This document shows positions 2,136 to 31,988 of a DNA stretch of 38,869 nt, piece by piece (the stretch's first letter is position 1; the number at the start of each line of letters is the position of its first letter). The DNA is from a virus, in the IMG/VR virus record IMGVR_UViG_3300025889_000321, positions 1 to 38,869 of that record; one strand, written 5' to 3'. The notes under the pieces are model-generated. The model ran no database searches. It saw only the letters and a list, made by a program, of their open reading frames with translations, and was not told the origin of the DNA. A program made the translations under genes and the position numbers.

Positions 2136-3404
2136 CTATTCATATGCAAATCTAGTTCCTATACCTAGTTTAGCTTGTCCAAGTACCCAACCGCTAGAAC
2201 TTGCAGGACTTAATGTTAAGTTCCAGTTCCAAGATTGAGTACTAGCATTAACTGTATGTTGAATACTTTCTATCCATAATTCATCAGTATAGCTAGAAGT
2301 ATCTGGATTAACTATTTTAACAGATATTCTATCTCCAAATTCTAATCCTAATGCTTTTTCCCAAATATTTACATCTTCTCTTGGATTAATTTTTAAACTA
2401 TCTATTCTAACAATAGGTAATGCAGTTTCAGCGATTTTTTGTTCTATTAATGATAAAACATCTAAATCAGAAACATTTATAGTACTTTCAACACTTGCTA
2501 TTGGTCTATATCTTTGCACCGAATTAGCGTCTGATACAAATTGTGTATTACCACCACTTCTAGTCCATTGATAAACATTTCTTACTTCATGAGTATCAAA
2601 CGAAGTTATAACATCTGTATAAGGTAAATTAGTTCCGTCATTAGAAAAAGTAGCTTGAACTGTTGTAGCATTTGTATTAGCCAATCTATAATTTCTATTT
2701 CTAAATACTGCTTTTCCGTCTTTACCAATAAAGAATTGAGCATTTTCTGCTTTTTCGCAATCTCTTATTGCAGTCAATATATCATTATCTGAATTTGTTT
2801 GTGATTGTACTTCATTAGTTCCAATTTGTATATCTCTTAATGAACTTGGAAACTGTAATTGGTCTAATAATCTACTAACTCTAATACTTGATAATTCTTG
2901 TTCATCTTCATAACCTAATACTGTTGATATTCCTATTTCTGAAAATCCACCTCTACCTAATCTCCAACCTGCTGAACTTAAAGTTTGTGAGTTAAATATC
3001 TTAAAGGCATCAACACAATTGAAAACTACTGTGCTATCTGCACCTAACGCAGGATAGCTTACAGGTATCATATCTAAAAAACCATAAAATATTGGATAAG
3101 TAGTTGAATCATATTCAGCAGTTATTTTTATAACTTTATAAGGTTGTATTTTTGTTATAGAATTTCCAGTATCATAATAAGGACTAGAAGTATTATTTGG
3201 ATTAAATCTGTTATCTGCATTAGATAATAAAATACTTGCAGTTCCACCAACAAACTGTCCTAATTCATTCTGCCTACCTCGTTTAGTTGTAAATTGTCTT
3301 ACATAAGCAGATATATCAGTAAATGTAATAGAACTATCAAATGGATTACTATCAAATCCTACTTCAACTGTTATATTTACATTATTATCAAATGCAACTG
3401 ACAT
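2136..3404 (-). CDS. Minor tail protein (distal tail/hub region)
   Basis: 422 residues, encoded directly after the tape measure gene, the usual place for distal tail and baseplate hub proteins of long-tailed phages. The N-terminus 'FTDISAYVRQFTTKRGRQNELGQF' with 'ASILLSNADNRFNPNNTSSPY' is a pattern I know from minor tail proteins of actinophages and marine siphoviruses (a beta-sandwich followed by 'l-N-D-g-rf-p'). The start overlaps the tape measure stop (TAATG), so the two are translationally coupled. The exact hub-versus-Dit assignment cannot be made from sequence alone. Confidence 0.75.
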   Translation of the reverse strand: MSVAFDNNVNITVEVGFDSNPFDSSITFTDISAYVRQFTTKRGRQNELGQFVGGTASILLSNADNRFNPNNTSSPYYDTGNSITKIQPYKVIKITAEYDSTTYPIFYGFLDMIPVSYPALGADSTVVFNCVDAFKIFNSQTLSSAGWRLGRGGFSEIGISTVLGYEDEQELSSIRVSRLLDQLQFPSSLRDIQIGTNEVQSQTNSDNDILTAIRDCEKAENAQFFIGKDGKAVFRNRNYRLANTNATTVQATFSNDGTNLPYTDVITSFDTHEVRNVYQWTRSGGNTQFVSDANSVQRYRPIASVESTINVSDLDVLSLIEQKIAETALPIVRIDSLKINPREDVNIWEKALGLEFGDRISVKIVNPDTSSYTDELWIESIQHTVNASTQSWNWNLTLSPASSSGWVLGQAKLGIGTRFAYE

Positions 3405-5749
3405 TAGAACGCCACATTAATTCCACGCCTTGCTCCCTCTTGTAAGGCTCTTGCTACTGCTTCTTCTATATCTTGAGGAGTTCCTAATAGTGCTTGAGGA
3501 TTTACTGTAATAATATTTGTATTACCATATCTTGCTAAACCGCCTCCAACATCTGTAAAACCACCTTTTGGTACTTCTGCACCACCACTTGCAGGAAACT
3601 TAACTCCTCCTGTCTGAGGGCTTGTAGGAACACTAGGAGTACTTGTAAATGGACTTATTTTTTTACCTGACATATTAAATATAGATTGAAAACTAGCTTT
3701 TAGTTTATCTAAATCTCCACCAACATTAGCAACCATTTGTCTTATGCCTTCTTCTAATGCACCAATTGCCTGAGCGTCAGCGATAGCGTCATCTAATTCT
3801 TTTTTAGCAATAGCCATAGCTAATAAATTTTCAGTTGAATTAGCAGTAGCTTTTGCTAAATCTTCTTGTGCTTGACGATATTCTTCTTGAGCCTTTTTAA
3901 TTTTTTCTTGTTGTTTTTCTAAATCATCTAAAGCTCTTTGATACTCTCTTTGTGCTTGCTCTTCGGCTTGAGTTGCAGAAGTACTATCTTTAATTAATTC
4001 AGTTAATCGTTGTTGAGCAACTTGTAATTCAAGATTTTGTACTTTACTTCTATCTTCTACTTCTAATAATTTTTGTATAGCTTCTTTTTGACGCTCAATA
4101 GCTAATTGTTCTTCAGCAGTAACTTCTTTAGATTTTTCTTTTTCTTTATTTAATTGTTCAAGTGCATAATCTCGTCTAGAAATAATGCCTTTTTCAGCGT
4201 TCATTTCCTTATTAAGATTTTTTAATGCTTTCTTTTCTTCGTTTTCTAAATCAGTAATATTTTCTTTAATCTTGTTCATCTTTTGATAAGCACTATAAAC
4301 TTTATTTAATGCTCCTAAAGACTCTTCTTCTCTAGTTTTAGCTAATTCTTCTTCTGCGTCTATTTCATCTTGAGTAGTATCAACAACTTCCTCTTTACTT
4401 TTTCGTAAATCGGTTAAACCTGCAATATAGCTTTCTACTGCGTCCCTTTCATCGTCATGAGATTTTTCTAAATCTTTAGTAACTTGAACTAATCTTTTTA
4501 CTCTTACAATGCCGTCTGCATATTCACGACTAACTGTTCTTAATTCATAAGAATATTGTTTTATTGGCTCTCTTTCAGCTACTGCTTTCCTATAATCAAT
4601 AATGCTTTGGATTAATCTATCAAACAAACCAACAGTTTGTCTTGCAGTTCCCTCGAAATCTTTTCCTATATCAGTTAATAAAATATTCCATTTATTTGAT
4701 AAAATATCTAATTCGGCTTGTAAAGTATCTAATTGTTTATTTGCAACTTCTTCAGTTGTTCCACCTGCGTCCCTTAGAGCTTCTTCATATTCTCTTATTT
4801 GGTCAGTAGTTCCAGATAAAATCTTAACCGCGTCAGCAACACCTCTATTTAAACCTAATTGGTCTAAAGTACTAGCCTTTAATTCATCAGACATTGGTCC
4901 TAATACTGCGTCTAATTCTTCAATAATATCTGCAACATTTTTCATATTGCCCTCTGCGTCAAACATTTGAAGTCCTAGTTTTGCAAATTCTTCTGAATTC
5001 TTAGCAGTAGCTCTTGGTATATCTCTTAAAACTTGGTTTAACTTATCGCCTGCCTCTGCACCTTTTACACCTCTATCAGCAAAAACTGCTAAAACTGCAA
5101 CACCTTCTTCAATATCTTTATTAACAACTTTTAAGGCTGCACCTGCTTTTGTAGTTAATGCCTCTGAAAATTGTTGAACACTTGCATTTGCTAATGTGTT
5201 AGCTTTTACCAAAACATCTGTAACTCGTGTTAAGTTTTGCATATTTTGTTGAGCGTCTTGAACTGTAAGTCCTAAAGCTGATTGTGCGTCAGTTGCTAAG
5301 TCAGTAGCAGTTGCCATATCAAACATACCTGCTTGTGCAAATTTTGCTACTTGAGGTAGTGCATTAATAGATTGTTCTGCGTCTAAACCTGCTGATGCTA
5401 AGAAGAAAAATGCCTCTGCTGATTGATTAGCTGATATTGTAGTTGTACTTGCTACTTCTTGAGCAGCCCTTACCATAGCCTCTTGTTCTTGAACTGTTGT
5501 GTTCATAATTGCAAGAGATTGTGTCATCTTGCTATCAAATTCAGTAAAGGCTTGGACTGCTTCAGTTACACCTTTTGCTAATGCAATAAAACCTACTGCA
5601 GTAACACCTGCAGTTATTTTTCCTAATTTACCTAAATGCTTACCAGTAGTGCCAGAAGTTGCACCAAGTTTTTTCATTTGTGCAGAGGCTAAATCTGCAC
5701 CTTTTGTAGCAATCCTAATTATTAGGTCTGCACCTGCACCTAAAGCCAT
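3404..5749 (-). CDS. Tail tape measure protein
   Basis: 781 residues, the longest gene in the window. It sets tail length and lies inside the tail tube. The N-terminal 40-330 region ('ITAGVTAVGFIALAKGVTEAVQAFTEFDSKMTQSLAIM', 'QSAEAFFFLASAGLDAEQSINALP') matches the TP901-type tape measure core. Residues about 400-650 are a very long, highly charged coiled coil (many E/K/Q heptads), and the C-terminus is Gly/Pro-rich. It follows the G/T chaperone pair, as in other siphoviruses. AGGAGAAGATAA precedes the ATG. All eleven Asp-Ala pairs are encoded GAC-GC (see findings). Confidence 0.93.
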   Translation of the reverse strand: MALGAGADLIIRIATKGADLASAQMKKLGATSGTTGKHLGKLGKITAGVTAVGFIALAKGVTEAVQAFTEFDSKMTQSLAIMNTTVQEQEAMVRAAQEVASTTTISANQSAEAFFFLASAGLDAEQSINALPQVAKFAQAGMFDMATATDLATDAQSALGLTVQDAQQNMQNLTRVTDVLVKANTLANASVQQFSEALTTKAGAALKVVNKDIEEGVAVLAVFADRGVKGAEAGDKLNQVLRDIPRATAKNSEEFAKLGLQMFDAEGNMKNVADIIEELDAVLGPMSDELKASTLDQLGLNRGVADAVKILSGTTDQIREYEEALRDAGGTTEEVANKQLDTLQAELDILSNKWNILLTDIGKDFEGTARQTVGLFDRLIQSIIDYRKAVAEREPIKQYSYELRTVSREYADGIVRVKRLVQVTKDLEKSHDDERDAVESYIAGLTDLRKSKEEVVDTTQDEIDAEEELAKTREEESLGALNKVYSAYQKMNKIKENITDLENEEKKALKNLNKEMNAEKGIISRRDYALEQLNKEKEKSKEVTAEEQLAIERQKEAIQKLLEVEDRSKVQNLELQVAQQRLTELIKDSTSATQAEEQAQREYQRALDDLEKQQEKIKKAQEEYRQAQEDLAKATANSTENLLAMAIAKKELDDAIADAQAIGALEEGIRQMVANVGGDLDKLKASFQSIFNMSGKKISPFTSTPSVPTSPQTGGVKFPASGGAEVPKGGFTDVGGGLARYGNTNIITVNPQALLGTPQDIEEAVARALQEGARRGINVAF

Positions 5750-8782: not shown

Positions 8783-8839
8783 TTGGTTTATCGAGAACAC
8801 AAGCATAATATATAAGTATGTTAGATAATAAAAAAGGAG
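8783..8839 (+). promoter_or_regulatory. Family A promoter and conserved leader, copy 1
   Basis: A -35 TTGGTT (8783-8788), a 17-base spacer containing TATCGAGAACAC, and a -10 TAATAT (8806-8811) are followed by the leader TATGTTAGATAATAA and AAGGAG. The same arrangement occurs at 31202 (plus), and at 20158, 24632 and 27816 (minus). The ATG inside the leader is not the start codon: the same leader upstream of 20123 is out of frame with its gene. Confidence 0.75.
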
Positions 8840-8844
8840 TTAAA

Positions 8845-9219
8845 ATGACATATTATCAAAGAGTAAAAGCATTTAGAGATAACCAACAAGTATTATTAGA
8901 TGATTTCTTAGCAGAAGTTGTTGCTACAGGTATTATTACAAAATCAACTGATAATAATTCTACTAACAGAAATAAAGTTTATTTTCAATTTATTGCTAAT
9001 AAATTTAATAAAAAAACTGTAAATAGTTTCAAAGACCATATTGTTAAATTAGAAGAAAAATTAGCTAAAGCTGATAATGAAATGGAAAAAGATTTATATA
9101 AAGAAATAATTTTAGAAACTAAATACAATGTGCGTTTTTGGAATATTGCAAAACCATTATTTGAAGCTGATAGAAAATTAGAGCAAGTTAAATATTTTGC
9201 AAGTAAAAATAATAGATAA
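8845..9219 (+). CDS. Plus-strand hypothetical protein inserted in the structural operon
   Basis: 124 residues from ATG 8845 (AAGGAG seven bases upstream), starting MTYYQRVKAFRDNQQVLLDD. It is helical, basic and lysine-rich, with an Asn/Ser-rich loop near 32-40 and no membrane segment or cysteine. It has its own family A promoter and lies between two connector genes that are normally adjacent. Its stop is one base from the stop of the converging gene at 9220. I do not recognise it. An early-expressed small regulator or host-takeover protein is a reasonable guess from promoter type and placement. Confidence 0.8.
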   Translation: MTYYQRVKAFRDNQQVLLDDFLAEVVATGIITKSTDNNSTNRNKVYFQFIANKFNKKTVNSFKDHIVKLEEKLAKADNEMEKDLYKEIILETKYNVRFWNIAKPLFEADRKLEQVKYFASKNNR

Positions 9220-21026: not shown

Positions 21027-22202
21027 TTATTCTTCTTCGTCTTTTCCTAAGATTTCATTAACTTTTTGAGCTACATTATTAAGACTTAAAAGTACTGCAA
21101 ATGTCTTATGACTTAGAATTGAGCCTCTAGGAAAGCCAATTTTTTCTAAATCAGTTAATGTTCCGTCTGGTAAAGTAAATTGTCCCCAATCAGAAACTTT
21201 ATTAATGTAATTGTTATCTAAACTAATTACATCATCTCCTAATAGTTCTAAATATTGCAATTGTAGTTTCCAACTACCACCTAATAAATGAACTTTTCTT
21301 CCTTTAAATGCCTCCCAAGGCACTTCTGTTCCACCATAAGAAGTTGGTACTGAAAATCCTAAAACATAATCTTCAGGTATTTTATCAATGCAATTATATT
21401 TTGGAATTATTATCATATTTTCTGTATGAGGTGCAATATCATCTGCAAACTCCATAATTTGTTCAAATGTATAATATTCGCAATCATTTGCTCTACATTG
21501 GTCTGAACTCATAACATCTCTAGTAGTTGCATATTTAGGTTTAAAATGTTTTACTGCAGTTAAATGTTTTTCGTGATTATAGTCTTTCCAATCATTATCA
21601 ATAAATTGTATTTCATGGTGCCATAAAAATCTTTCTGCAACTTCTGGCTTATTTACATATCGAATACTTTCAGTTGAAATTGAGCCACATAACCAACCAA
21701 ATTCTTTTGCAATAAATGAACTTGGGTCTAAAGGTGTATAAGAATAAATTAAATCTATCGGTAAATTTCTAGCTACTCTTTTTCCTTTTGGTTTTTTATT
21801 TATTCCTAAATCTAAAGGCTCTGCAATTTCTTTTAATAATGCGTCTAAATCATCATCATCAAATCCAGTTCCATTCAACCCACTATCTTGTGCAACTTCT
21901 TTTAATAATTCTGCTAAATCATTATCGTTATAACTTGCTAAGTCAGAAATTCTATTATCAGCTAAAACTATTTTTTTAGCAGTTTTATCATCTACATCTA
22001 CATATTCAACATTAACTTCGTCATAACCTAACATCTCCATAGCCATAACTGTATGATTACCTGCTAAAATTTCATTATTATTTTTATTTACTACTACAGA
22101 ACGAAACTGTCCTAGTTCTTTTATGCTATTTGCAATAGCTCCTACATCTCCTTGACGAGCATTTTTAGGATAATATTTTAGTTCACTTATTTTAATTTTC
22201 AT
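21027..22202 (-). CDS. ParB-domain / TGT-like fusion: candidate 7-deazaguanine DNA transglycosylase (DpdA-type)
   Basis: 391 residues. Residues 1-125 are a ParB/Srx-type domain: 'YYPKNARQGDVGAIANSIKELG', the nucleotide-binding box 'EILAGNHTVMAM' (44-54) and 'VLADNRISDLASYNDNDL', the form normally found in front of phage DNA methyltransferases. Residues 150-385 instead resemble a tRNA-guanine transglycosylase-like barrel: 'IQFIDNDWKDYNHEKHLTAVKHFKPKYATTRDVM' (in segments), 'KVHLLGGSWKLQLQYL' (304-318) and 'DDVISLDNNY' (323-332). DpdA enzymes of this superfamily exchange guanine for preQ0-type bases in DNA. A complete preQ1 operon 3 kb away supports that role. Its start overlaps the upstream stop (ATGA). 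Confidence 0.72.
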   Translation of the reverse strand: MKIKISELKYYPKNARQGDVGAIANSIKELGQFRSVVVNKNNNEILAGNHTVMAMEMLGYDEVNVEYVDVDDKTAKKIVLADNRISDLASYNDNDLAELLKEVAQDSGLNGTGFDDDDLDALLKEIAEPLDLGINKKPKGKRVARNLPIDLIYSYTPLDPSSFIAKEFGWLCGSISTESIRYVNKPEVAERFLWHHEIQFIDNDWKDYNHEKHLTAVKHFKPKYATTRDVMSSDQCRANDCEYYTFEQIMEFADDIAPHTENMIIIPKYNCIDKIPEDYVLGFSVPTSYGGTEVPWEAFKGRKVHLLGGSWKLQLQYLELLGDDVISLDNNYINKVSDWGQFTLPDGTLTDLEKIGFPRGSILSHKTFAVLLSLNNVAQKVNEILGKDEEE

Positions 22203-23128: not shown

Positions 23129-23599
23129 CTATTCTTCTTCAGTGTCTGAACTTACTTGTTCATCTGATTTTAATATATCGTGTAAGATAAAATCTTCGTT
23201 TGCATACAAATGTAATGCAACTCCTAATTTCATACAAACTCTTTTAAAGCCGTCTGCTTCAGCTACTTTTAATCTTTCTGCGTCTGAATTCCAATTAAAT
23301 GGATGTTCGCAAACTCCAGTACTTTCTTTTGTAACTTTTACTCCATTTATTTCAACTGTAAGCCTATAAGTGCAACCAACTAATACTTGTTTAGTTTCTT
23401 GCGTTTTAGGATTAGTTAAAGTTTCTTTCAAATGATAAGGAATGCTTTCATCAAAGTTACCAAATAATGCAATCATTTTTTGCCTTACCATAGAGTGTTC
23501 TACATAATTACCATATTTGCCTTTTGGTGGAGATTTAACTGCACCTTTGCCAAAAGGTTTTGATAATTCTGCATATATTGCTCTTGTTTCTTTATCCAT
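23129..23599 (-). CDS. Rad52-like single-strand annealing protein
   Basis: 156 residues. The core 'YVEHSMVRQKMIALFG' (about 32-47), 'VGCTYRLTVEINGVKVTKESTGVCEH' and 'DAERLKVAEADGFKRVCMKLGVALHLY' (about 108-134) match the Rad52/Sak-type fold of phage annealing proteins, in particular the last helix 'A-a-a-aFKRv---lGl-l-LY'. The C-terminus is acidic (EEE). It would anneal ssDNA in phage replication and recombination. It overlaps the upstream HTH gene by eight bases and is followed by a terminator. Confidence 0.75.
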   Translation of the reverse strand: MDKETRAIYAELSKPFGKGAVKSPPKGKYGNYVEHSMVRQKMIALFGNFDESIPYHLKETLTNPKTQETKQVLVGCTYRLTVEINGVKVTKESTGVCEHPFNWNSDAERLKVAEADGFKRVCMKLGVALHLYANEDFILHDILKSDEQVSSDTEEE

Positions 23600-24837: not shown

Positions 24838-25377
24838 TTATTTAACTAATGATAAAAATTCGTTTCTAGTTTCGCTTTCTTCTCTAAATACTCCACGCAT
24901 AACTGAAGTAATCATTTGTCCGTCAGTCTTAATTCCTCTTGCAACCATACATAGATGGGTTCCTATTCCATAAACTGCTACATCATATGTATTTACTAAA
25001 TCTCTAACTTCATTTGCAATATCAGAAACTAGTTTTTCTTGTAGTTGTAATTTATGTGCGTGTTTATGTGCTATTCTAGCAAATTTAGATAATCCTAAAA
25101 CTTTATCTCTAGTTATATAACCAATTGCTATTTCTGAACTAAACGGCATTAAATGATGTTCACATAAAGACCAAACTTTTATTCCTTTAACTATAACCAT
25201 TTGGTCTGCTTTTACTGCTTCAAAAGTTGTTCCAATTTTTCCTGCGTCATAATCTATAAACTCTTTCCAAAACTTTGCAACTCTTTTTGGTGTTTCTAAT
25301 AATCCATCTCTATTTGGGTCTTCTCCAATTTCAATTAATAATTCTTTTATTAATTTTTCTATTTTTTCTTGTTGCAT
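24838..25377 (-). CDS. folE: GTP cyclohydrolase I
   Basis: 179 residues. It opens GTP to dihydroneopterin triphosphate, the first step of both folate and 7-deazaguanine synthesis. Zinc ligands and active-site motifs are present: Cys72 and His75 in 'WSLCEHHLMPF', 'GLSKFARI' (96-102) and Cys143 in 'GTHLCMVARG'. It is shorter than most bacterial enzymes (about 190-220) because the N-terminal extension is missing. It is last in the que operon, its ATG overlapping the queE stop, so here it feeds base modification. Confidence 0.95.
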   Translation of the reverse strand: MQQEKIEKLIKELLIEIGEDPNRDGLLETPKRVAKFWKEFIDYDAGKIGTTFEAVKADQMVIVKGIKVWSLCEHHLMPFSSEIAIGYITRDKVLGLSKFARIAHKHAHKLQLQEKLVSDIANEVRDLVNTYDVAVYGIGTHLCMVARGIKTDGQMITSVMRGVFREESETRNEFLSLVK

Positions 25378-26111
25378 TATTTACCTCTTTCATCTGACCA
25401 TAACAAGACATGCAATCTTGGAGATAAGTTATATCCTCTTTTTAGTATTTCATCTGATAGTTGCACCATATTTATAAAATGGTATTTATTATTTTTGCCT
25501 TCAGGCATTATATAAACATTTTTTAAATCGTTTTCTTTTACTATTTCATCTACTTCAAATAAGTCATCTATTTCTTGTACTACAAATTTAAAAGCATAGT
25601 TTTGCGAATATTGCATATATTGTTCTAATACTTTTGGTTTAATAGTTTTTTCTTTTGGCATACCTGCATTTGATAATTTAGGACTAATATTAAAGTAATC
25701 TATAACATCAAAAAACTCATCATTTTTAGCTAATATTGTTCCATTTGTTTCAATTTCAATAACAAATCCTTTTTGTCTTAGATTTTTCATTACATGAAAT
25801 AATTTACTTTGTTGGCTCATTGGTTCGCCACCAGTAAAAACAATATGACTTCCAAAAGGTAAATTAAGGCTCATTATTTGTCCTACTACTTGCTCAACTG
25901 TAAAGCCAATAGTTTCTTTTTTAGGGTCATACTTAACTCCATTTTTACCTTTCCAGTCCCAAGTGTATGGAGTATCGCACCAATCACAAGTTAAATTGCA
26001 ACCACTAACACGAATAAATGCACTAATCTTTCCAATAGTTTGCCCCTCGCCTTGAAATGTAGGTCCAAAAATTTCATTTATTCTAATTAAAGGTAAAGTT
26101 TTAGTATTCAT
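25377..26111 (-). CDS. queE: 7-carboxy-7-deazaguanine synthase
   Basis: 244 residues from ATG 26111 inside the end of queD; an upstream in-frame start adds four residues. It is a radical SAM enzyme converting carboxytetrahydropterin to 7-carboxy-7-deazaguanine. Its cluster cysteines are Cys38, Cys42 and Cys45 (CX3CX2C in 'GCNLTCDWCDT'), and SAM-binding 'FTGGEPMSQ' lies at 92-100. 'FGPTFQGEGQTIG' (15-27) is the typical start. It overlaps both queD and folE. Confidence 0.95.
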   Translation of the reverse strand: MNTKTLPLIRINEIFGPTFQGEGQTIGKISAFIRVSGCNLTCDWCDTPYTWDWKGKNGVKYDPKKETIGFTVEQVVGQIMSLNLPFGSHIVFTGGEPMSQQSKLFHVMKNLRQKGFVIEIETNGTILAKNDEFFDVIDYFNISPKLSNAGMPKEKTIKPKVLEQYMQYSQNYAFKFVVQEIDDLFEVDEIVKENDLKNVYIMPEGKNNKYHFINMVQLSDEILKRGYNLSPRLHVLLWSDERGK

Positions 26112-26478
26112 AATAACTTGCAATAGTTTTATCAGTTTCTTTTACACTTACTTTATTTAAAATATCTTTTTCTCCATATATTTCAATAAACATTGCTTCA
26201 AATTCTTTATAAAAATGTTTAGCCATTTTTTCAGCAGTAGGATTAAAGTTTAAAACATCGTTTAAATGCCTATGGTCTAATTTATTATCTATATATTCTT
26301 TAATAAAATTTAATTCTCCATAGTCAATTATGAAACCAACTTCATCTAATCTCATAGATATTAACTCAACAATTACTACATAATTATGTCCATGCAACCT
26401 AGCACATTGGTGTTCTTTTGGTAAATTAAGTAATTGATGACTTGCAGAAAAAGTAAATTCTTTAGCTATTGAGTACAT
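26101..26478 (-). CDS. queD: 6-carboxytetrahydropterin synthase
   Basis: 125 residues. Zinc ligands are His14 ('FSASHQL') and His29/His31; catalytic Cys25 lies in the CX3HGH motif 'CARLHGH', which marks the QueD (CPH4) subgroup. 'DHRHLND' (69-75) and 'NPTAEKMAK' (79-87) complete the active site. It converts dihydroneopterin triphosphate to carboxytetrahydropterin. An 88-base gap containing a family B element separates it from queC. Confidence 0.93.
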   Translation of the reverse strand: MYSIAKEFTFSASHQLLNLPKEHQCARLHGHNYVVIVELISMRLDEVGFIIDYGELNFIKEYIDNKLDHRHLNDVLNFNPTAEKMAKHFYKEFEAMFIEIYGEKDILNKVSVKETDKTIASYYEY

Positions 26479-26502
26479 TTCTTACAACCTTTCAATGTTT
26501 AT

Positions 26503-26552
26503 GGTCAAAAAAGACCTGTGAGCTTTTGTTCTCTCGGTAGGAAAAAGCATTC
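26503..26552 (+). promoter_or_regulatory. Family B intergenic element, copy 5, between queC and queD (reverse to the genes)
   Basis: The plus strand reads GACCTGTGAGCTTTTG, TTCTCTCGGTAGG, AAAAAGCATTC, matching copy 2 (ACCTGACCTTTTGTTCTCTCGGTAG, AAAAAGCATTC) but oriented against the que operon. A GGTC/GACC hairpin over an A/T6 loop abuts it (26503-26516). Possible roles are an operator, attenuation between queC and queD, or an antisense start. Confidence 0.55.
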
Positions 26553-26566
26553 ATTGGGTAGTAGCC

Positions 26567-27349
26567 CTACTTATTCTCTTGAAATTCTTGTTGTAATTTA
26601 AGAGCGTTTTCTAAGACTTCGTCCCAACCTCCTACATACTCAACTGGGTCTTGTGTTCCTAATTGCCAAAAAGCTAATATTCGTTCAACATCAGAGCCAG
26701 TTTTTCCACTAGCTCTTCCTTTTTCATCAGGTGCATAACTTGTATTAGTATTTTTTAGAACTGTATTAAAGTCTAAATTTAACTTAACGCAGTTTGCGTC
26801 AGTATCTTGCAATATAGTAAATTTATCTCCATTTAAGTAAGGAAGTTTTAAACTTACTAAATCACTATCCCAATTGCCTACTTTAAAAGCATTCATTGCC
26901 TCTACATAAAATTCAGGTCTGCAATCAGGATAAATTGCGTGGTCGCCACTATGAACTCCAAGTCCAATATCTACTTGGCAATTTTCTTTTGTTGCTATTG
27001 ATAATGCATAACCTGCAATCATAGAAAAGAAAATCATATTTCTATTTGGAACTACTGTAAGTTTCATATTTTCTTGCTCATAAAAGCCCTCTGGCACATC
27101 AGTATCGCTACTAACTAATGCAGAGTTATATAAATTACCTATTTGAGATACATCTAATACTGTATGTTCTACTTCATAGCCATTTTCTTTTAAATAAGCT
27201 AAATTATCAGATAATCTTTCTAATTCAAGTTTATGTTTTTGTCCATAATCAAAACTTAATGCAGAAACTTTATAATCATTTGCTAAAAAATTAATTAAAA
27301 GTCCTGTACTATCCATGCCTCCACTAAGGCTTAATACTGCTCTTTTCAT
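26567..27349 (-). CDS. queC: QueC-type preQ0 synthase lacking the zinc cysteines
   Basis: 260 residues. It should convert 7-carboxy-7-deazaguanine to preQ0 with ATP and ammonia. The PP-loop 'SLSGGMDST' (7-15), 'SFDYGQKH' (32-39) and 'VPNRNMIFFSMIAGYA' (100-115) are intact. The C-terminal zinc site, normally S-C-Y then C-G-x-C-x-x-C, reads T-S-Y (203-205) and S-G-K-T-G-S-D (214-220): all four Cys are replaced by Ser204, Ser214, Thr217 and Asp220, with spacing kept. The gene order fixes its identity; whether product or stability differs is unknown. The start overlaps the queF stop. Confidence 0.88.
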   Translation of the reverse strand: MKRAVLSLSGGMDSTGLLINFLANDYKVSALSFDYGQKHKLELERLSDNLAYLKENGYEVEHTVLDVSQIGNLYNSALVSSDTDVPEGFYEQENMKLTVVPNRNMIFFSMIAGYALSIATKENCQVDIGLGVHSGDHAIYPDCRPEFYVEAMNAFKVGNWDSDLVSLKLPYLNGDKFTILQDTDANCVKLNLDFNTVLKNTNTSYAPDEKGRASGKTGSDVERILAFWQLGTQDPVEYVGGWDEVLENALKLQQEFQENK

Positions 27350-27744
27350 TATTTCTCCAAATATCCTACTGAAGTAGTTTCAATTCCACCTCTTTTAGAT
27401 TGTTTATTAGTTACTTTTATCCATTTAGGCTCTAAAGTATCAAATAATTTTTGTGCAATATCACTTGCTAATGCCTCGCAAAAATGTCCTACTTCTCTAA
27501 ATGTCCATAAATATAGCTTTAATGATTTACTTTCAATACATAATTCATCAGGCTGATATTCAATAGTTAATTCTCCAAAGTCAGGTTGTCCTGTCATTGG
27601 ACATAAACTTGTCAATTCATCAGTCCAAAATTTTACTGTTTGAGTATTTTTTGGTGCAGGAAAAGTTTCAAGTTGGTCTAATGGATTTCTTGTCTTTTTT
27701 CCTAATATAGTTAGGTCTTTAGTATATTCTGGCTCATGTGCCAT
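27349..27744 (-). CDS. queF: NADPH-dependent preQ0 reductase
   Basis: 131 residues, the short (unimodular) form. It reduces the nitrile of preQ0 to the aminomethyl group of preQ1. Nucleophile Cys48 and Asp55 lie in 'SLCPMTGQPDF', and the QueF motif 'ESKSLKLYL' (71-79) that binds NADPH is intact, so this is a reductase and not the QueF-like amidinotransferase. 'HFCE' (87-90) keeps the substrate Glu. It is first in the operon, with AGGAGGACAAA at the start and a family A promoter about 70 bases upstream. Confidence 0.93.
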   Translation of the reverse strand: MAHEPEYTKDLTILGKKTRNPLDQLETFPAPKNTQTVKFWTDELTSLCPMTGQPDFGELTIEYQPDELCIESKSLKLYLWTFREVGHFCEALASDIAQKLFDTLEPKWIKVTNKQSKRGGIETTSVGYLEK

Positions 27745-27815
27745 TTTGTCCTCCTAGTTTTGTTTAAGGTTTTCTAGTACTTGAGATAAGGTTAGCAGGT
27801 ATAAAAAATTTGTCT

Positions 27816-27843: not shown

Positions 27844-28755
27844 CTAAAATAAAAAAAACTTAGAACAAAAAGTAGAAAAAGTATAATATAGGTTTATTAT
27901 ATTTTTTATAAGGTTATGGTTAGCCTTAAAAAATAGCAACCGAGTAGAGCGAGAGCTAACCCAAGTAAAATTGGTAGGTAAGAAATTAGAAATTCAACCT
28001 TGATGAAGACTTAAACAGAGAGCTTTTGTGAGCATAAACTAGTACCTGAAAATGAAACTTGGGGAGGTAATTAGCCCACTTGTTAAGAAGTAAAGCAAGA
28101 AGTAAGAAGTAAGGTAGGCGTATTGACTACAGGATTGAGAATTTCCATTAAAAAATAATTTAAAGTAGGATTGGTATAAACTTAACTAGCCAAAAATCTA
28201 GAGTATGCTCTCACAAAAGCTCTTTGTAACTGAGTTCTTATGGATATGAGTAGTTGTTTGGCAAGTAGTTCAGGAATGTACCTGCCTTTAGTTGAAATAC
28301 TTTAGGGCTACGCTATAAAGCATATATTGATTCGAAGCAATATGAACTACTTAAAACTTATAAACCATTTAGTAACCAATCCTGAAATACGGCATGTCGA
28401 AAAATGTTAGATAAGTAATTTAAGTAAGCAAACAGATACGCTCATATCCGTAAGGACTTAGTTAATTTGAGAGATTAAAGATATAGGTTGTGAAGGTAAC
28501 TTCTCATTTGGGAAGCTTCATCTCAGGTGGTCGTAGCGTAATGCACGAGCCATATACTGAAAGGTATATAAGCCTGAAGGAATAACTTGCAGTACAATAT
28601 CCTTTTAGGTTAGTTGTGGAGTGTGGTGGGTTGTTAATTTAATCAAAGTGGTTTTGACAAATTACTTTGAACTTTAACTGTAAGCAAGATTGTCATTATT
28701 TAGCCTGTATCTTTAATCTCTTAATTTAGATTTATAACTCCCAATAGGGTAGAAT

Positions 28756-28793
28756 AGATGATATATTCACTGATAACTCCGTGATTATTATCT
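28756..28793 (+). repeat. Hairpin holding an antisense copy of the family A leader
   Basis: AGATGATA pairs with TATTATCT and TCAC with GTGA, forming the last hairpin before the terminator. Read on the minus strand, 28785-28799 is TATGTTAGATAATAA followed by TCACGGAGTTA, matching the leader at 8817 (TATGTTAGATAATAA, then AAAAGGAGTTA). No -10/-35 of family A lies next to it. Confidence 0.55.
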
Positions 28794-28801
28794 AACATAC
28801 G

Positions 28802-28847
28802 AGAAGACTTTAAGGACTGGCAACAGTCTTTAAGGTCTTCTTTTTTT
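28802..28847 (+). terminator. Strong rho-independent terminator of the noncoding RNA
   Basis: GAAGACTTTAAGGACTG (28803-28819) pairs over all 17 bases with 28824-28840 (two G-U pairs), closed by a GCAA tetraloop and followed by seven T (28841-28847). There is no A-tract on the other side, so it works only rightward, showing that the gene-free region is transcribed from the plus strand. Confidence 0.93.
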
Positions 28848-29337
28848 ACATTGGTGTAGGTTTTACAATATATCTTTCTTGAGTTTTAGGTAATGGTGCT
28901 AATTTTTTAGTGATTATATTCCAATAAGTAAAAGGTAAGCCAGTTTTTGATATTCCATGCCACCTGTAGCCTAATTTTTCATAAAATTTAATACTTGGTT
29001 TATTTGCAAAAAACCTTAATAACATTACATAATTTTCTTTCATATCTTCTTCTAACATTTTCATCATTTCTGCACCAATATTTTTACCTCTATATTGTTC
29101 TAATACGAAAAAATGTCTTAAAGTACAATGTCTTGGTTCTCTTTTTGTATAAGAAATAAACATAAAACCTTTATCTTCTAAGCTAAAAACTTTAGAACTT
29201 TCTTTATCCCATTGTTTTTCAACTCGCCAATCATACAAAGCATTTTTTAAATGACTTTTAGAACTTAAACTACCACCTTTTGTATGTTCTATTTCTTTTA
29301 ATAATTTTTCCATTTCTTTTTCAGTTTTTATTATCAT
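28846..29337 (-). CDS. GNAT-family N-acetyltransferase
   Basis: 163 residues from ATG 29337 (MIIKTEKEMEKLLKE); a start at 29382 would overlap the lysozyme-like gene by 62 bases. 'LRHFFVLEQYRGKNIGAEMMKMLEEDM' is motif A with the acetyl-CoA loop (Q-YRGKNIG), and 'LLRFFANKPSIKFYEKLGYRWHG' is motif B ('A-kpsi-FYeklGyr'). The substrate is unknown. Its stop nearly touches the ncRNA terminator from the opposite strand. Phage GNATs may modify host proteins, or bases as Mom does; nothing here decides. Confidence 0.78.
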   Translation of the reverse strand: MIIKTEKEMEKLLKEIEHTKGGSLSSKSHLKNALYDWRVEKQWDKESSKVFSLEDKGFMFISYTKREPRHCTLRHFFVLEQYRGKNIGAEMMKMLEEDMKENYVMLLRFFANKPSIKFYEKLGYRWHGISKTGLPFTYWNIITKKLAPLPKTQERYIVKPTPM

Positions 29338-29737
29338 AGTCCCAACACTTTCTACTTGCGTTCCAATGGTGTAAGCCGTCATTAATCATTAACCATTTAG
29401 CTACTTTTGTAGCTACTATTTTATTAAATGGAGTAGTTGTTATTTTTAATTTAGGTTTTAACCAAGCCCAAGTTTTATCATTAAATTGAAATAATCCTCT
29501 ATCAGTTGTACCATTTTTATTGTAATTTATAGCGTTTTCTCTGCCAGAACTTTCACAATAAATAATTAGTAAAGGTATTAAAGCTTTATCTAAACCAAAT
29601 TCATCAACTATTAATTCAATATGTTCTTCTACTGCACTAACTTTATATTGTATTTCTCTGCATTCAATATATTCATTTAAAGTATCAGGAGTTAAAAAAG
29701 GGTAAGGTATAGCACAAGCGATTATTAACTCTAACAT
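29321..29737 (-). CDS. Lytic transglycosylase/lysozyme-like endolysin
   Basis: 138 residues. The N-terminus 'MLELIIACAIPYPFL' is hydrophobic, like a short signal or anchor. The catalytic Glu62 lies in 'IIYCESSGRENAINYNKNG', and 'TTDRGLFQFNDKTWAWL' (77-93) is the following SLT motif (G-fQ---tW). It would cleave peptidoglycan. Close to the phosphoesterase and holin genes. Confidence 0.75.
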   Translation of the reverse strand: MLELIIACAIPYPFLTPDTLNEYIECREIQYKVSAVEEHIELIVDEFGLDKALIPLLIIYCESSGRENAINYNKNGTTDRGLFQFNDKTWAWLKPKLKITTTPFNKIVATKVAKWLMINDGLHHWNASRKCWDYDNKN

Positions 29738-31586: not shown

Positions 31587-31606
31587 ACATTAAAATTGTT
31601 ATTAAA

Positions 31607-31960
31607 TTAACCAAATATACCAATAAATGTTCTATCTGCAAGTTCTGAAGAATTAGTCCTAACTCTTAAATATCCGTCAGATAAAAAATCAAAATCATTC
31701 AAAAAAACTAAACCATCAGCAGTATGTTGTATGTCTTGAGTTATTCCTGTAATATTTGTAAAGTTATACCAAAATGAATTGTCAATACTGAACTGTAATT
31801 GAAACTTATTACTTGTTAAAACACTAGGCATAATTAAAGCTCTTAATTTACTACCTTGCATATCAAAGCTATTACTATTTTGGTCGTCTGTTGCAATTGT
31901 AATTGTCATATTCTCTGTATAGTTTTTAAGCCGACTATATGGCTCTGTTGGTTGTACCAT
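31607..31960 (-). CDS. Hypothetical structural-type protein
   Basis: 117 residues, beta-rich: 'MTITIATDDQNSNSFDMQGSKLRALIMP', 'KFQLQFSIDNSFWYNFTNITG', 'GYLRVRTNS'. The layout (strands rich in aromatic and polar residues, 'f-d-G-----Rvr') recalls a tail or decoration beta-sandwich. It lies at the end of the lysis/tail operon. Function unknown. Ribosome site AAAGGATAATAAAA. Confidence 0.65.
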   Translation of the reverse strand: MVQPTEPYSRLKNYTENMTITIATDDQNSNSFDMQGSKLRALIMPSVLTSNKFQLQFSIDNSFWYNFTNITGITQDIQHTADGLVFLNDFDFLSDGYLRVRTNSSELADRTFIGIFG

Positions 31961-31988
31961 TTTTATTATCCTTTATTTTTATATTATT

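Follow-up and report, generated by a model that had tools for sequence, protein, structure and literature searches.

A Candidate New Class of Large Phage Noncoding RNAs With Exchangeable Domain Arms

Introduction

What is encoded by the 1.1 kb of phage DNA that lies between queF (27349–27744, - strand) and a GNAT gene (28846–29382, - strand) and contains no recognizable gene? The window, i.e., the whole stretch of DNA analyzed here, is an IMG/VR virus record of 38.9 kb (38,869 nt) with a GC content of 31.5% and siphophage-type genes for tape measure, major head protein, portal, and terminase. The first-pass annotation of this record proposed that the interval encodes a giant structured noncoding RNA, either a divergent member of GOLLD or ROOL or a new class. 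Few large, ornate RNAs are known from bacteria and phages, and most of these lack an established function. The overall reading reached here, to which we assign a probability of roughly 0.6, is that the locus belongs to a so far undescribed class of large noncoding RNAs in phages, which act as an arm-swapping structural scaffold; there are no expression data, and function is inferred.

Setting, Extent, and Strand of the RNA Gene

As first claimed, the interval is gene-free: between positions 27745 and 28845, no ORF of at least 60 amino acids is present on either strand, and the longest consists of 31 codons. The + strand folds with an energy of -277 kcal/mol, compared with -208 ± 8 kcal/mol for dinucleotide shuffles (z -8.5; -7.9 in a repeat), and the RNAs of five relatives give z values of -4.7 to -11. 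With a fold z of about -8, covariation (see section Sealed Domains and the 5′ Pseudoknot), and no long ORF, the existence of a giant structured noncoding RNA in this phage is supported.

The start of the RNA is placed near 27907 because of the TATTAT -10-like hexamer upstream of it, and its end is defined by the terminator (Table 1). The promoter-like site scored 9/12 in a scan in which about five such sites are expected by chance; a TATTRT -10 was read by eye at the equivalent upstream place in the L019/L021 group of relatives and in L030. The rightward terminator is present, but its stem, previously described as perfect, contains two G-U pairs and is hence not perfectly Watson–Crick. In both the window and L030, in which the copy is likewise near queF, the RNA stands alone and is oriented against the neighboring genes.

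In the closing-helix alignments, the non-Watson–Crick cells read on the + strand comprise 82 G-U pairs and only 4 A-C mismatches, which indicates that the + strand is the functional RNA. Folding of the + strand also exceeds that of its complement beyond the effect of composition in 6 of 6 tested sequences (z -1.0 to -3.3). Because base composition by itself accounts for at least half of the raw difference in energy in this control, the G-U count is the stronger evidence for the strand. We regard it as nearly certain that positions 27907–28842 specify a structured + strand RNA belonging to a family. In the window, this RNA is a stand-alone noncoding RNA gene, still without expression data.

Table 1. 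Positions of the RNA gene and its parts in the window.
Feature	Positions	Strand	Details
Promoter-like site	27873–27900	+	TAGAAA, 16 nt, TATTAT; -10 at 27895–27900
Whole RNA gene	27907–28842	+	About 936 nt; start inferred, end = terminator
5′-terminal H-type pseudoknot	27910–27941	+	Stems a and b, A-rich loop 3
5′ linker domain	27942–28014	+	GCGAGAGC GNRA-capped hairpin; window/L044-type allele of the 5′ domain
Domain B	28015–28227	+	26-bp closing helix CAGAGAGCTTTTGTGAG.../...CTCACAAAAGCTCTTTG
Domain E	28229–28462	+	23-bp closing helix ACTGAGTTCTTATGGATATGAGT/GCTCATATCCGTAAGGACTTAGT; inner helix GTTTG/CAAAC
Domain E arm 1	28262–28320	+	Allele a3; 100% identical to L021, 98.3% to L040
Domain E core hairpin	28324–28343	+	ATATTG-AUUCGAAG-CAATAT; palindromic loop UUCGAA at 28331–28336, kissing-loop candidate
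Domain E arm 2	28349–28425	+	Allele b1; 98.7% identical to L037
Domain F	28463–28728	+	27-bp closing helix TTGAGAGATTAAAGATATAGG/CCTGTATCTTTAATCTCTTAA
3′ tail	28729–28800	+	Conserved in L006, although L006 lacks the remaining RNA
Rightward intrinsic terminator and T-run	28801–28847	+	Stem 28801–28842, then T7; conserved in L006

Sealed Domains and the 5′ Pseudoknot

The window RNA has the features that define the class: a 5′ H-type pseudoknot followed by sealed domains (from the series A, B, C/D, E, F) with covarying closing helices. The domains are sealed by helices of 20–30 bp and are spaced 0–4 nt apart. The three nested long-range helices recognized at the outset are real, and are slightly longer than had been stated (Table 1). 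In the alignments of relatives, 94.9% of cells are paired in the closing helix of domain B (4 pairs changed on both sides), 99.6% in the closing, inner, and core helices of domain E (5 pairs), and 97.6% in the closing helix of domain F (6 pairs). For each of these domains, the covariation score exceeds those of all 500 of 500 shuffles and of every slid control, and the covariation check that the first-pass annotation had suggested is thereby passed for the closing helices of all three. The closing-helix alignments were extracted by hand and the pseudoknot columns were assigned by hand, so the counts lean toward structure, a bias that the slid and shuffled controls offset only in part.

The pairing of AAGTAGTTC (28263) with GAACTACTT (28344) that had been proposed as a pseudoknot finds no support: its 5′ partner is confined to the swappable arm type a3, whereas GAACTACTT persists in most of the relatives that have other arms. 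A different, conserved pseudoknot at the 5′ end had been overlooked. In the window, its stem a (AAGGTT/AGCCTT) pairs 27910–27915 with 27922–27927, and its stem b (GGTT/AACC) pairs 27918–27921 with 27938–27941. The corresponding stems are AGAGATT/AGTCTCT with GAGTC/GACTC in L019, L028, L032, and variants (the L019/L021/L028/L032 group), GAGATT/AGTCTC with CAGTT/AACTG in L044, and GGTT/AGCC with GAGTT/AACTC in L030. All four versions share one geometry: loop 1 measures 1–2 nt, loop 2 is absent, and the A-rich loop 3 measures 8–11 nt. Stem a was not recognized by eye in L035, L037, L039, or L024. In the region of the 5′ domain, the window and L044 are 72% identical over 185 nt.

A separate observation concerns L030, in which oriented positions 2507–2515 (TATAGGTTA, at the RNA 5′ end) and 4019–4027 (TAACCTATA, just before the terminator) show perfect 9-bp complementarity. 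As this pairing would compete with pseudoknot stem a, a switch or a 5′–3′ closure is possible.

Relatives and Accessory Status

Relatives of the window RNA, with lengths of roughly 0.7–1.6 kb, are carried by about 22 further IMG/VR phage contigs, which were found by exact-pattern scans with closing-helix stretches and the 5′ motif. Some are near-duplicates (L037/L041/L042 and L046/L047) or two parts of one contig (L024/L045). The complete window RNA recurs with 100% identity in contig 3300034375_006747 (L003/L005/L020). In most relatives, the RNA shares the coding strand and immediately follows a gene for an Mre11-like exonuclease; small ORFs lie downstream of it, with a replication initiation gene about 1.5 kb further on. 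BLAST searches of annotated phage and plasmid collections gave chance matches only, and no host could be assigned; the cultured-phage relatives of the terminase and exonuclease, at 25–31% identity, are too distant to name one. Exact-pattern matches in genome contigs (L048, L049) and L043 were rejected as chance, their surroundings being unrelated to the RNA. L029 was also rejected, its only match being a G-run motif within long overlapping ORFs.

In L006, QueF is 98% identical to that of the window and both flanks match at about 86–93%, and the RNA is absent. Judged from this sequence comparison alone, the RNA appears to be accessory rather than essential. L006 retains the 3′ tail and the terminator; around 3718–3985, a perfect TATAAATCTC/GAGATTTATA hairpin occupies the place of the RNA, and the tail keeps a TATAAT-like hexamer. 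Since tail, hexamer, and terminator are all kept, the 3′ tail may represent a separate small RNA. Elsewhere in the window, a 27-bp piece of the 3′ tail (28774–28800) has a second copy, 89% identical, at 8816–8842; this copy is on the opposite strand and immediately precedes the ORF at 8848.

Shuffling of Domains and Arms

Each RNA of the family consists of two to five sealed domains in a fixed order, and the composition varies between contigs. The window, L019, L021, L025, and L039 have B-E-F; the other compositions are A-B-C-E-F (L026), B-C-E-F-F2 (L022), E-F (L028), B-E-E-F (L031), B-(B/E hybrid)-E-F (L037), B-E-E-E-F (L040), A-D-E-F (L032), and B-D-F-F (L046). Domains have therefore been duplicated, hybridized, or lost across relatives. 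In the hybrid of L037, the outer portion of the B helix is joined to the inner portion of the E helix, and because this junction was made on both strands, pairing is preserved. In L030, a 22-bp helix (oriented 2780–3124) encloses an ORF of 88 amino acids with its own ribosome binding site, for which searches of Pfam and PHROG gave no match.

Within domain E, the same variation extends to single arms. Ten types of arm 1 and 11 types of arm 2 occur in 20 combinations among 29 copies; median identity is 96% within a type, and identity between types is near zero (local match). Sub-hairpins such as CTCTTTAGTAGGATTCGAGGAAGATGT are found in arm 1 of one phage and in arm 2 of others, with the stem of the relocated hairpin re-paired (CCTG/CAGG versus CCCA/TGGG). 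Arms are 89–100% identical between phages whose exonuclease proteins are 37–40% identical and whose neighboring genes are only 37–44% identical. The window exonuclease, for example, is 37–39% identical to those of L021 and L037 despite their near-identical arms, and translated matches in the terminase region of the window and related contigs are at about 53–60%. Similarly, one arm 2 is common to L026 and L028 (89%) and another to L032 and L038 (94%), with exonucleases that are 37–39% identical.

A conserved scaffold of about 30 nt flanks each arm, and these flanks suffice as shared sequence for recombination. A weak Rad52-type match in the window (23129–23599; E 0.004, below the cut-off) would fit with recombination and proves nothing. 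Mis-joins of metagenome reads at the conserved scaffold could in principle create some of the arm combinations, which is a real caveat. Several combinations (a2-b1, a1-b1, a3-b2, a4-b4) recur in different contigs, hybrids keep their structure, and the window RNA is 100% identical in a second contig, all of which speaks against mis-assembly as the main cause. Shuffling of arms and domains between phages is very probable. This combinatorial exchange is the most unusual property of the RNA and is invisible from a single sequence.

Outside the RNA, positions 31606–31964 of the window are 96.7% identical at the DNA level to 5688–6046 of L021, whereas the other genes of the two are far more diverged; on these alignments, the match would represent another recent exchange.

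Comparison With Known RNA Families

Rfam 15 gave no match at gathering thresholds for the window or for 25 loci. Permissive E-values yielded only chance-level hits, among which GOLLD, ROOL, OLE, HEARO, and group I/II introns, the models proposed for this comparison in the first-pass annotation, were absent altogether. RAGATH-7 reached 21.8 bits in L032 only (gathering threshold 111.8) and was rejected; it is absent from the other domain-E copies, including that of L044, which has the same arm. No tRNA genes were detected in the window or in 24 loci.

GOLLD resembles the window RNA in being phage-encoded, in exceeding 800 nt in many members, and in combining conserved and variable parts (PMC12286853). 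In some members, the linker carries tRNA cargo, and 14 copies form a cage joined by kissing loops (PMC12286853). Unlike the window RNA, which has no covariance-model match and no tRNAs nearby, GOLLD is often near tRNAs or contains them, and it is the window family that has discrete arm alleles shuffled combinatorially and a variable number of domains. ROOL is likewise ornate and linked to phages or prophages, and forms an RNA-only octameric cage with kissing loops (PMC12286853), but it adopts a single fixed fold in which one linker varies, whereas the window family is a chain of exchangeable sealed domains. OLE, another large ornate bacterial RNA, is found chiefly in Bacillota and functions together with proteins of the host (PMC12054373, PMC9723947); its dimer involves a palindromic kissing loop, L9.3, in which an internal tetranucleotide switches between palindromes (PMC12286853). 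The OLE covariance model does not match the window RNA. HEARO and group I/II introns are also large structured RNAs of mobile DNA that sometimes enclose ORFs. In contrast, the window RNA is intergenic, with a promoter-like site and a terminator, and matches none of their models. No ORF for a nuclease or reverse transcriptase is associated with it, the flanking genes of the window being those for QueF and GNAT and the inner ORF of L030 being unmatched.

Because Rfam gives no match at gathering thresholds or at permissive E-values, a new class, one of the two options first offered, is favored over a divergent GOLLD or ROOL, and likewise over OLE or HEARO. No RNA with such an architecture was found described in the open-access literature searched (most subscription journals were outside the search).

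A Palindromic Loop in Domain E

In domain E, the 8-nt loop of the core hairpin consists, in 25 of 25 copies, of either UUCGAA or UUAUAA flanked by a single base at either end, and no intermediate was seen. Among the 24 predicted hairpin loops of the window RNA, it alone holds a 6-nt palindrome. The switch between the two loop forms does not reflect an intrachain pair, because the self-complementary dinucleotides sit at adjacent positions. In a cryo-EM study of GOLLD and OLE, such a loop signature was taken as support for symmetric intermolecular kissing loops (PMC12286853). Self-assembly of the window RNA into an oligomer through this loop may be possible, although we incline slightly against it: it would rest on one loop with few independent changes, and it is a lead only.

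A Model for the RNA and Its Alternatives

In the preferred reading, a + strand transcript would consist of the 5′ pseudoknot and then a string of self-contained sealed domains, an organization established computationally. Homologous recombination between co-infecting phages would swap, duplicate, or remove arms and domains while leaving the fold intact, because each domain or arm folds alone and is flanked by conserved scaffold; the products are present in the contigs, and the route is inferred. A pool of discrete arm alleles in many combinations would be the product of this exchange. By inference, the RNA would serve as a structural scaffold, copies of which may pair via the palindromic loop of domain E and assemble into an oligomer inside the infected cell, and the variable surface contacting host or competitor factors would be provided by the exchangeable arms. 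That the arms are variable recognition modules is a tentative inference with more doubt than support, and the alleles could instead be functionally equivalent stuffing on the scaffold. The fullest version, a self-assembling phage RNA whose arms form a population-level library of interchangeable specificity modules, occasionally with a protein gene inside an arm, is unlikely as it stands. Cassette-shuffled protein antigens or tail fibers are analogous; in this phage RNA, it is RNA domains that are exchanged.

The alternative that survives best, improbable as we judge it, is counter-defense, in which the arms would imitate or sequester defense factors of the host that bind or sense RNA, and alleles would persist because hosts vary. 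The shuffling of discrete, conserved alleles among distant phages resembles balancing or frequency-dependent selection, an accessory gene (absent in L006) suits such a role, and no conserved protein partner adjoins the RNA; however, no arm resembles a known RNA, and the long conserved scaffold and the pseudoknot exceed what a decoy needs.

Control of downstream gene expression by a cis-acting leader would suit the L019/L021 group, in which the RNA is followed, after about 60 nt, by a small ORF that is encoded on the same strand and has a good ribosome binding site. This possibility is slight, as the window RNA has its own terminator, is followed by no same-strand ORF, and points against its neighbors, the downstream ORFs vary between members, and a promoter-like TTGCAT...TATAA was noted by eye between RNA and ORF in homologs.

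An element acting as DNA (a recombination hotspot, cruciform, or replication origin) has very little in its favor: the arms do recombine, and in relatives the site lies between the genes for exonuclease and replication initiation, but pairs drift via G-U on one strand only, the + strand outfolds its complement by more than composition explains in each of the six sequences tested, and a promoter-like site and a terminator frame the window unit. A divergent GOLLD or ROOL, which would also be phage-borne, about 0.7–1.6 kb, ornate, accessory, and suspected of loop-mediated assembly, can be virtually set aside, because Rfam models do not detect it at any threshold, no tRNAs lie nearby, and a string of domains is unlike the fixed folds of those RNAs (PMC12286853). 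A self-splicing or selfish RNA of the group I/II intron or HEARO type, suggested by the ORF within a sealed domain of L030, as in introns, and by the empty site of L006, hardly merits retention, given that there is no intron or HEARO match, the site lies between genes rather than within one, and the L030 ORF matches no family and is absent from other inspected members.

The arm-swapping scaffold would enlarge the set of large phage RNAs by an unlisted class, of which public contigs hold about 22 further relatives. Swapping of arm alleles between distant phages is a property that we found in no RNA described in the open-access literature searched, and would mean that a noncoding RNA evolves by domain shuffling, as proteins do. 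Nature has already supplied the experiments in the form of chimeras, in that the arm combinations could separate scaffold from specificity parts, and the palindromic loop offers an easy way to ask whether phages in general rely on cage-like RNA assembly.

Other Features of the Window

The queF gene that borders the RNA is part of an operon (24838–27744, - strand) for FolE, a QueE-like radical SAM protein, a QueD-like protein, QueC, and QueF. These make up a preQ0/preQ1 pathway, which probably serves to modify the phage DNA with 7-deazaguanine. Positions 21027–22202 encode a ParB-like/DUF6610 protein. On the other side of the RNA, the GNAT ORF and a transglycosylase-like ORF (29321–29737) overlap by 62 bases (29321–29382) on the same strand.
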